Of a stretch of 64,000 nucleotides of DNA, positions 40,683 to 42,456 are shown piece after piece (the stretch's first letter is position 1; each line of letters starts with the position of its first letter). Source of the stretch: Rhodospirillaceae bacterium (GTDB lineage: Bacteria > Pseudomonadota > Alphaproteobacteria > Rhodospirillales > UBA2165); NCBI GenBank assembly GCA_018649725.1, contig JABIHH010000023.1, forward strand, positions 1 through 64,000, read 5' to 3'. The position numbers were made by a program, and so were the translations under genes. Under the pieces are notes generated by a model. The model saw only the letters and a list, made by a program, of their open reading frames with translations, was not told the origin of the DNA and searched no databases.

Positions 40683-41642
40683 ATGCCCGACGATCTTTCG
40701 ACAGCGCCTTTGCTTGATCCCCGCAAGTTTAAAAATCCGGATGTGACAGCGGATGGATCTGAGCGTGCTGTTGTCGGCCTCACCCATTTGCGGACGCTGT
40801 GGTTTAATACGGGCACGCTCTGCAATTTGACGTGCCAAAATTGCTACATCGAATCTTCGCCAAGCAATGATCGGCTGGTTTATTTGACGACGGGTGAGAT
40901 TGAAGCCTATCTCGATGAGATTAAATCAGAAGGCCTGAAAGTTGAGGAGATTGCCTTTACCGGCGGTGAGCCTTTCATGAACCCGGACATTATCCCAATG
41001 ATCGAAATATCGTTGGAGCGTGGTTTTGAAGTGTTGGTGCTGACCAATGCGATGAAGCCGATGCATCACAAAAAATCTGACTTGCTGGATTTAAAGAACC
41101 GATTTGGTGACAAGCTCAGCTTGCGGGTGTCGATTGATCACCACACTAGTGCGGGGCATGAAGAATTACGCGGGCCCGATAGTTGGAATCCGATGATGGA
41201 AGGCTTGAGCTGGGCCTCTAAAAGCGACCTGAATGTCGCGGCGGCAGGTCGGGCACGCTGGGGTGAGGGCGAAGACGAGGCGCGCGAAGCTTATGCTCAG
41301 CTATTTGCAAAAGCGGAAATCGGGATTGATACCAGTGATCCCTTAGCGCTGGTGCTGTTTCCAGAAATGGATGAAGGTTTAGATGTGCCGGAGATCACGG
41401 TCGCGTGCTGGGATTTGTTGGGCGTGCAGCCGGAGGCCATGATGTGCGCAACATCGAGGATGATTGTTAAGCGCAAAGGCGCCGCTGAGCCAGTTGTAAC
41501 GCCCTGCACGCTTTTGCCCTATAATACCCAGTTTGAGCTGGGTCACGGTTTGGCCGAAGCGGCAAATTCAGTAAAGCTTAATCACCCCCATTGTGCCCGG
41601 TTCTGTGTGCTGGGCGGCGGCTCGTGCAGTGTTGGCGACTGA
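40683..41642 (+). CDS. Radical SAM protein with C-terminal Cys cluster
   Basis: 319 residues. The 4Fe-4S/SAM motif is Cys47-x3-Cys51-x2-Cys54 in CNLTCQNCY; GGEPF at 94-98 binds SAM. The C-terminal third has six more Cys (242, 255, 275, 304, 308, 315; CARFCVLGGGSCSVGD at the end), suggesting an auxiliary iron-sulfur cluster as in SPASM/twitch proteins. Such enzymes modify peptides or small molecules. The stop region overlaps the next gene by 14 bases, so the two are translated together; see the finding on the pair. No precursor peptide gene was found nearby. Confidence 0.87.
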   Translation: MPDDLSTAPLLDPRKFKNPDVTADGSERAVVGLTHLRTLWFNTGTLCNLTCQNCYIESSPSNDRLVYLTTGEIEAYLDEIKSEGLKVEEIAFTGGEPFMNPDIIPMIEISLERGFEVLVLTNAMKPMHHKKSDLLDLKNRFGDKLSLRVSIDHHTSAGHEELRGPDSWNPMMEGLSWASKSDLNVAAAGRARWGEGEDEAREAYAQLFAKAEIGIDTSDPLALVLFPEMDEGLDVPEITVACWDLLGVQPEAMMCATSRMIVKRKGAAEPVVTPCTLLPYNTQFELGHGLAEAANSVKLNHPHCARFCVLGGGSCSVGD

Positions 41643-42456
41643 GCCGGTTCTGCTTTTTGGCGGGCCCTACAGTAATTTAGAGGCGACCAAGGCCGTGCTG
41701 GCGGAAGCCCGGCAACGCGACATTCCTTTTGAAAATATAATATGTACCGGCGATGTCGTCGCCTATTGTGCCGAGCCACAGGAAACCGTCGATCTTTTGA
41801 GAGATAATAATATCGCCGTCGTCATGGGCAATTGCGAGGAACAGCTGGGTGAAGGTGCCGAAGATTGCGGTTGTGGGTTCGAAGAGGGGACCGCGTGTGA
41901 TCTCCTATCTGACCAATGGTTCCGCTTTGCCTCGGCACATTTGGATGAAGCGGCGCTGAGTTGGATGCGAAACCTACCGCGCAAGATTGAGATGGAGATC
42001 GCCGGCTTTAAGTTCGCCGTCATTCACGGCTCGGTATCGAAAATCGCCCAATTTATCTTTGCCTCAACCGATGACGCGGTGTTGGGGGCGGAGATTAATT
42101 TATCGGGCTGCGACGGTATTATTGGCGGGCATTGTGGCCTGCCTTTTACCCGGCAAGTCGGCGCTAAGCTGTGGCATAATCCGGGGGTGATCGGCATGCC
42201 GGCCAATGATGGTACGCCGCGCGGTTGGTATAGCGTCCTGACACCGGGCGATAATATGTTGGAGATCCACCATGTTGCGCTCAGCTACGACCATCAAAGC
42301 GCGGCGCAAAAGATGCAGGGGAAAGCTCTGCCGCCAGGCTATGCCGATTGCCTAGAAAGCGGGCTTTGGCCGAGCCTGGACGTCTTGCCGGATATTGAAA
42401 GATCAGCGACCGGCCATGCTCTTGAACTTAGCCAACCCGTAATTTTCCCAAGATAA
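41629..42456 (+). CDS. Calcineurin-like phosphoesterase-fold protein with incomplete metal site
   Basis: 275 residues from GTG 41629 (an in-frame TTG follows). Fold blocks follow the metallophosphoesterase order: FGGPYSNLEAT (10-20), CTGDVVAYC (39-47), VMGNCEEQL (65-73), VIHGS (131-135), GGHCGLPF (166-173). Motif I should be DxH but reads GxY, and the final His of GHxH is replaced (Gly170), while GD, GN and HG are kept. A Cys block DCGCGF...C (79-90) is unusual. The start lies inside the end of the radical SAM frame. Function is unknown; catalysis with a normal di-metal site looks doubtful. Confidence 0.8.
   Translation: MLATEPVLLFGGPYSNLEATKAVLAEARQRDIPFENIICTGDVVAYCAEPQETVDLLRDNNIAVVMGNCEEQLGEGAEDCGCGFEEGTACDLLSDQWFRFASAHLDEAALSWMRNLPRKIEMEIAGFKFAVIHGSVSKIAQFIFASTDDAVLGAEINLSGCDGIIGGHCGLPFTRQVGAKLWHNPGVIGMPANDGTPRGWYSVLTPGDNMLEIHHVALSYDHQSAAQKMQGKALPPGYADCLESGLWPSLDVLPDIERSATGHALELSQPVIFPR

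Follow-up and report, generated by a model that had tools for sequence, protein, structure and literature searches.

Conserved pairing of a radical SAM protein with a calcineurin-fold protein suggests a so far unrecognised way for bacteria to make arsenic-containing sugars

Two overlapping genes of an alphaproteobacterium encode a radical SAM protein (RS) and a calcineurin-fold protein of the metallophosphoesterase type (MP), which together form a real, conserved two-part system. The window in which they lie is a 64,000-nucleotide stretch of Rhodospirillaceae bacterium DNA (assembly GCA_018649725.1, contig JABIHH010000023.1, positions 1 to 64,000). Placement of RS and MP in an arsenosugar-type pathway is well supported; the substrate, its reduction, the hand-over and the adenosyl transfer by the two proteins are what we infer. 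The best explanation, to which about an even chance is given, is that RS and MP each contribute one half of a single enzyme unit in an arsenosugar-type pathway, in which a Car1-like reductase (MP) would feed an ArsS-like radical SAM enzyme (RS). By membership tests the pair is neither Car1 nor ArsS; most likely it works like both joined. According to two papers, arsenic is adenosylated by a radical SAM enzyme in arsenosugar synthesis, and ArsS and ArsM act together in this process. No description of an RS–MP pair was found in the open-licence literature searched, a scope outside which most subscription papers fall.

The positions of both genes and of their conserved residues are given in Table 1. 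An earlier note on this DNA had reported a 14-base overlap between the genes, and this is confirmed with MP starting at GTG 41629, the best choice of start and the one on which the overlap depends. An identical 14-base GTG overlap is possible at two other loci (L001 and L002). RS matches Pfam Radical_SAM with an E value of 4.4e-15. Its best NCBIfam match is the Rv1681 family (NF049973) at 82.4 bits, far below the cut-off of 380, and its second is ArsS (TIGR04167) at 50.3 bits, where the cut-off of 300 is likewise not reached. The CX3CX2C motif and six C-terminal Cys residues that had been described are both present, and five of the six are conserved (C255, C275, C304 and C308 in all 19 aligned RS, with C315 nearly invariant), while the Cys of ACWD is not. 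MP matches Metallophos_2 with an E value of 2.8e-10. Neighbouring genes in the window, as judged by eye, encode an alcohol dehydrogenase, a TSUP-type protein, a response regulator and a dioxygenase-like protein, and no ars gene was recognised among them. Since these neighbours are common only to L001 and L002, and some of them also to L024, they are regarded as simple synteny.

Table 1. Features of the RS and MP genes, with positions counted in the 64,000-nucleotide window
Feature	Position	Strand	Basis
RS, radical SAM protein, 319 aa, ArsS-like by context	40683..41642	+	ORF; Pfam Radical_SAM
RS CX3CX2C (C47, C51, C54)	40821..40844	+	Invariant in 19/19 aligned RS
RS C-terminal conserved Cys (C255, C275, C304, C308, C315)	41445..41627	+	RS alignment, n=19
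RS stop / MP GTG start overlap, 14 bases	41629..41642	+	ORFs
MP, calcineurin-fold protein, 275 aa, Car1-related	41629..42456	+	Metallophos_2, AF2, SapH fold match, hhalign
MP altered motif I, G12-P-Y14-S-N16 (GGPYSN), DxH lost	41662..41676	+	MP alignment
MP G41-D42, bridging Asp retained	41749..41754	+	D42 in 60/60 MP
MP N68 (retained ligand) and C69 in GNC	41830..41835	+	N68 in 60/60; C69 in 55/60, V in 5
MP Cys block C80-G-C82-x7-C90 (DCGCGF...C)	41866..41898	+	C80 in 59/60, C82 in 60/60, C90 in 59/60
MP H133-G134, retained ligand	42025..42030	+	H133 in 60/60 MP
MP H168 retained, C169, G170 replacing last His (GHCG)	42130..42138	+	MP alignment

Matches of RS to several peptide-maturing radical SAM models, like those to models for molybdenum cofactor and heme d1 chemistry, all lie below the respective cut-offs. 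RiPP maturation is regarded as less likely rather than as the leading idea, given that no precursor peptide gene was recognised and that the genes recurring nearby encode transferases, transporters and oxidoreductases.

Residue counts for MP refer to 60 distinct sequences including that of the window, one of which is partly unreadable. The canonical two-metal set of the fold (DxH, GD, GNH, H, GHxH) was not found, as its D, its H and its last H are replaced in all readable MP. For instance, G12 stands where intact relatives have D (59 of 59 readable sequences) and Y14 where they have H (57 of 59, the others having C or A), while N16 is present in all 60. MP also lacks the His of GNH, the place of which is taken by C69 or, in five sequences, by V. 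In the final motif, H168 and G170 are each present in 59 of 59 readable sequences, with C (37) or S (20) at position 169, and a further residue, C39, occurs in 55 of 60. In the usual view of the fold, the residues lost here are ligands of one metal, and those retained are the ligands of the other metal plus the bridge. By its sequence, MP has thus given up one metal position while retaining the other (D42, N68, H133 and H168), beside the Cys block.

These counts bear out most of what had been read from the single sequence, namely the retained GD, GN and HG blocks, the GGPYSN form of motif I and the Gly in place of the last His of GHxH, and GxY was found to replace DxH in nearly all relatives with the Cys block retained (C82 in all 60). 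A non-canonical or non-metal role had also been proposed, but MP is not simply a non-metal protein, since the ligands of one metal position are kept in every readable sequence. No homologue with intact DxH and GHxH was found in the same overlap among the 60 distinct MP, and because both the losses and the kept ligands are common to all of these where they can be read, the pattern reflects remodelling rather than decay. The catalytic ligands are indeed lost, as they would be in a dead phosphoesterase that adjoins an unrelated gene by chance; that reading is nevertheless refuted by conservation (an identical pattern in 60 distinct sequences, fusion to RS and co-occurrence with it), and virtually no credence is left to it.

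The AF2 model of MP has a mean pLDDT of 94.9. Over most of its length it resembles PH1004 (2gju, Z 27.2), SapH (3qfm, Z 26.7) and a Sphaerobacter metallophosphoesterase (3rqz, Z 25.9), after which the matches drop to Z 16. PH1004 shares the fold at 14% identity and is a hypothetical protein whose title gives no function; SapH (Spr1479 Ap4A hydrolase) shares it at 22% identity and is a phosphoesterase by title. VPS29 is also among the fold matches. In a model of a fused MP–RS protein, residues 326–341, which hold the CX3CX2C loop, have a pLDDT below 50.

Scanning of genome contigs with MP yielded 36 loci, which are not independent cases, as near-copies occur among them (L025, L026 and L035). 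RS lies within the locus at 32 of the 36. At 28 loci, MP and RS share a single open frame with MP first, an arrangement also observed at L041. At three others (L001, L002 and L024) they are separate, adjacent genes in the order RS then MP, as in the window, and at one (L036) MP precedes RS with a masked stretch between them. The four loci without RS are L008, L009, L030 and L033, and three of those four genomes have RS elsewhere. Loci with RS preceding MP that were examined number 12, including the window; in all of them, the genes are consecutive and on one strand, and the MP start overlaps or closely adjoins the RS stop. Gene calls in high-GC loci were made with a position-specific GC filter and tblastn with chosen genes, the longest open frames having given antisense artefacts. 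A dedicated pairing is supported by these loci (28 of 36 fused, three adjacent, one with MP then RS and four lacking RS).

Several other features of these loci were observed. For example, a set comprising an MbnB/TglH/ChrH-type enzyme, DUF2063 and DoxX lies upstream of the MP–RS gene at L035:2-2425, where the families were tested, and gene clusters resembling it by blast are present at L003, L004, L007, L022, L025 and L028. In two streamlined genomes of 1.2–1.3 Mb (G098 and G297; L125, L126, L152 and L154), MP, RS and a TIGR04282-like gene below the cut-off occupy separate places, and RS adjoins a gene that matches part of a VTT/FAD oxidoreductase query.

Car1 is reportedly the subject of work by Shen et al. 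in 2024, and its reduction of arsenate is said to be coupled to thioredoxin. According to one paper (PMC12124457), Car1 of Rufibacter tibetensis is an arsenate reductase for which Cys74 and Cys76 are essential, and an ars-operon metallophosphoesterase in three arsenic-methylating isolates, including Paraclostridium dentum IIB4, is ~40% identical to Car1 and has Cys74/Cys76. A search for MP-like metallophosphoesterases on annotated plasmids gave 85 records, 30 of which were covered, none of them among the 43 Agrobacterium records, and one of them (H1) being itself an MP. Twelve of the other 29, which are ~24–28% identical to MP, were examined after being hand-picked for spread. Eight of the 12 stand beside ars genes (ArsR with ACR3, ArsC, ArsM or ArsA). 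A CGC block is present in seven of the 12, starting at residue 74 or 75, and all seven are in ars operons and have intact DxH and GHTH. At the five examined loci without CGC, ars genes were found at one (Flammeovirga) and not at the other four.

In a profile alignment (hhalign), DCGCGF of MP falls on the CGC block of the Car1-like set with an E value of 8.9e-37. Given this alignment and the presence of Car1 Cys74/Cys76 at the same place, MP carries a Cys pair of the arsenate-reductase type. MP forms a single clade with a long stem in the tree (100/100), which neither puts it within the CGC group nor resolves its sister; it is proposed to descend from, or to have a common ancestor with, a Car1-type metallophosphoesterase. 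Car1 and MP have in common the metallophosphoesterase fold, the Cys-x-Cys block at the Cys74/Cys76 place and an arsenic context. They differ in that the examined Car1-like relatives keep DxH and GHTH and lie in ars operons, whereas in MP the first metal position is missing, an additional Cys (C90) is present, and a radical SAM enzyme is the partner, either as a separate protein or by fusion. An ars operon context was not found for MP, the relatives of which are instead located in TIGR04282/TIGR04283 clusters. Overall, MP probably reduces arsenic compounds. The Cys block had been called unexpected in the family. That may hold for metallophosphoesterases in general but does not apply to the ars-operon relatives, seven of which have CGC. 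Similarly, the suggestion of a Cys-assisted site acting within a radical SAM pathway is supported, but the block itself is not novel, being common to the Car1-like type.

MP could also be non-catalytic, serving as a thiol-rich carrier or scaffold that would keep trivalent arsenic, or else a metal, for use by RS. In favour of this, MP lacks one metal position as well as the GNH His, VPS29, a match of the model, is a non-catalytic member of the fold, and fusion to RS would suit a carrier domain. However, all four ligands of the remaining metal position are retained in every readable MP, and the Car1 redox pair is present in 59 of 60, and a carrier role is considered unlikely.

Further variation was noted among metallophosphoesterases of this kind. 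That of Dolichospermum (L169:4974-5783) has CDC and a C replacing the Asp of motif I, and no ars genes accompany it; its cluster encodes GTP-binding proteins and FolE. The ars operons of Mucilaginibacter and Pedobacter include a second metallophosphoesterase without the Cys block, and in tandem metallophosphoesterases of two Bacteroidota ars operons (L160:4995-6487 and L161:4995-6506), CGC is present in the first only. Another metallophosphoesterase in the genome of the window has DIH and GHIH, lacks the Cys block and is encoded immediately upstream of an ArsM-like methyltransferase (L193:4866-6415, G000 contig C18).

The distribution of RS and MP was surveyed in 385 Alphaproteobacteria, with the same draw of genomes for each search. 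MP was found in 24 genomes, RS in 116 (a count that includes the two weakest matches, G116 and G355) and TIGR04282 in 157 (E <= 0.001), of which 109 are over its cut-off. TIGR04282 occurs in 113 of the 116 RS genomes and 44 of the 269 others (Fisher p 4e-56), RS in 21 of the 24 MP genomes and 95 of the 361 others (p 2.5e-9), and TIGR04282 in 23 of the 24 MP genomes and 134 of the 361 others (p 6e-9), with all three p values ignoring kinship. RS is adjacent to MP in 10 of the 24 MP genomes, elsewhere in 11 and absent from three. MP is dispensable for RS, as 95 of the 116 RS genomes are without it. The arsenosugar label of TIGR04282 and TIGR04283 is an NCBIfam name, and their roles are putative.

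At closer range, TIGR04282 is present at 13 of the 36 MP loci, 19 of which have an MFS transporter directly upstream, and seven of the 30 best RS loci have TIGR04282 or TIGR04283 within 1.5 kb of RS. All four genomes with an RS-less MP locus have TIGR04282 over the cut-off, as do six further added genomes, the loci of which were known beforehand to hold it. No biosynthetic gene had been seen beside the pair. This holds for the window, but elsewhere in its genome, on another contig (C4, L130), TIGR04283 and TIGR04282 are neighbours, both over cut-off. The statement that the substrate is unknown likewise no longer holds entirely, as the context suggests chemistry of the arsenosugar type.

The three MP genomes without RS bear directly on the role of RS. 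Two of them (G014 and G147, of a single genus) are the only ones of the 385 with ArsS (TIGR04167 over cut-off), which lies ~1.5 kb from MP in both; the third (G053, 87% complete) has neither RS nor ArsS. The gene order in G014 and G147 is TIGR04282, VTT/FAD oxidoreductase, ArsS, MTAP-like phosphorylase, TIGR04283, MP (opposite strand), PhnD, PhnE, PhnC and a TIGR03169-like gene, with the matches to TIGR04282, MTAP, TIGR04283 and TIGR03169, as tested in G014, being strong yet below cut-off. A Roseomonas plasmid cluster comprises RS, MP, PhnDEC, TIGR04282, TIGR04283, a second radical SAM protein and DUF547, and is paralleled by the ArsS plasmid cluster of B. glumae, with ArsS, TIGR04282, TIGR04283, MTAP, a radical SAM protein and DUF547. 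Based on this parallel and on the replacement in G014 and G147, RS stands where ArsS stands. As regards free variation of the radical SAM neighbour, which would have spoken against a dedicated system, RS is replaced in two of 24 genomes, and its replacement by ArsS supports a shared pathway.

ArsS and RS also have CX3CX2C in common, their C-terminal Cys look similar in order by eye (ending in HC..C...GSxC), and they share the company of TIGR04282, TIGR04283, MTAP, DUF547 and VTT/FAD oxidoreductase. In contrast to ArsS, RS is often fused to MP and falls far under the TIGR04167 cut-off. Alignment of the two by hhalign covers the core only, with no match past residue 216, leaving the C-terminus outside. 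Five ArsS plasmid regions were examined, that of Cupriavidus being without annotation, and no metallophosphoesterase was found in the annotated regions of B. glumae, Acinetobacter, Pseudanabaena and Hymenobacter plasmids.

A conventional function for MP would be that of a one-metal phosphoesterase acting on the sugar-phosphate from the MTAP-like phosphorylase. The fold and the D/N/H/H site are retained, and MTAP or MTAP-like genes adjoin ArsS or RS (L123, L124 and L067). Yet DxH and the last His are missing in all readable MP, the conserved Cys block is left unexplained, and it is the arsenate-reductase Cys pair that the intact relatives carry, so that such a function appears very improbable.

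The occurrence of ArsM was compared using two queries, with control genomes hand-picked from the survey rather than random. A Rubrobacter query matched in 8 of 24 MP genomes, 9 of 24 with RS only and 1 of 24 with neither, and an arsenosugar-type query in 0 of 24, 8 of 24 and 1 of 24, respectively. The scarcity of ArsM, the expected supplier of methylated arsenic, speaks against the best explanation. Since neither query had a match in G014 and G147, both of which have true ArsS, the absence of ArsM does not exclude an arsenosugar pathway. Methylated arsenic might, for example, be taken up via PhnDEC-type or MFS transporters. As a separate observation, some ArsM-like genes have an in-frame TGA followed by IAGGLPCAGW (L173 of G313, L174 of G194 and L176 of G093; G287 was also flagged), and this TGA looks like a selenocysteine codon.

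The same pathway position could, in principle, serve another element, with RS adenosylating a phosphorus or selenium compound imported by PhnDEC and MP preparing that compound. A PhnD-type binding protein is encoded beside or near MP at six loci (L005, L029, L032, L038, L123 and L124, with families tested at L038, L123 and L032) and is weakly like a putative selenate binding protein (TIGR04553). A TIGR03169-like oxidoreductase (N-terminal to SelD), below cut-off, is present at L038 and L123, and the small number of ArsM genes in MP genomes would favour a non-arsenic element as well. Against this, it is a true ArsS that replaces RS beside MP, and each of the seven CGC-bearing intact relatives examined belongs to an ars operon. 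A change of element is regarded as fairly unlikely.

If RS and MP do form an arsenosugar-type unit, MP would bind a methylated pentavalent arsenical at its single metal, and C80 and C82 would reduce it to a trivalent thiolate. The trivalent product would be handed to RS, which, with SAM, would place a 5'-deoxyadenosyl group onto the arsenic and so create a C–As bond. The nucleoside would then be converted to a glycosylated arsenosugar by the TIGR04282/TIGR04283 transferases together with an MTAP-like phosphorylase. As an idea only, the loss of one metal position in MP would suit a substrate with fewer oxygens than arsenate. A bolder reading, held to be possible rather than likely, is that RS is a second, unrecognised class of arsenosugar-type (5'-deoxyadenosyl-arsenic) synthase in ~30% (116/385) of the sampled Alphaproteobacteria, including streamlined genomes of 1.2–1.3 Mb. 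On this reading, MP would be a novel organoarsenical reductase relying on Cys residues and one metal; it would derive from an arsenate reductase and have been fused to RS so that the toxic trivalent intermediate passes directly from one to the other.

To our knowledge, bacterial arsenosugar-making enzymes are known only from the ArsM and ArsS of a few organisms. In a further paper, arsenosugars are described as dominating the arsenic of seaweeds (PMC8787705). If RS is truly equivalent to ArsS, arsenosugar-type chemistry would be widespread in Alphaproteobacteria and could be tested in culturable members such as Bradyrhizobium sp. BTAi1, Methylopila and Acidiphilium. If MP reduces methylated arsenic, a phosphatase fold would have given rise to an arsenate reductase, which was then re-specialised through the loss of one metal position. 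Together, RS and MP suggest that bacteria have a way of making arsenic-containing sugars that has gone unrecognised.
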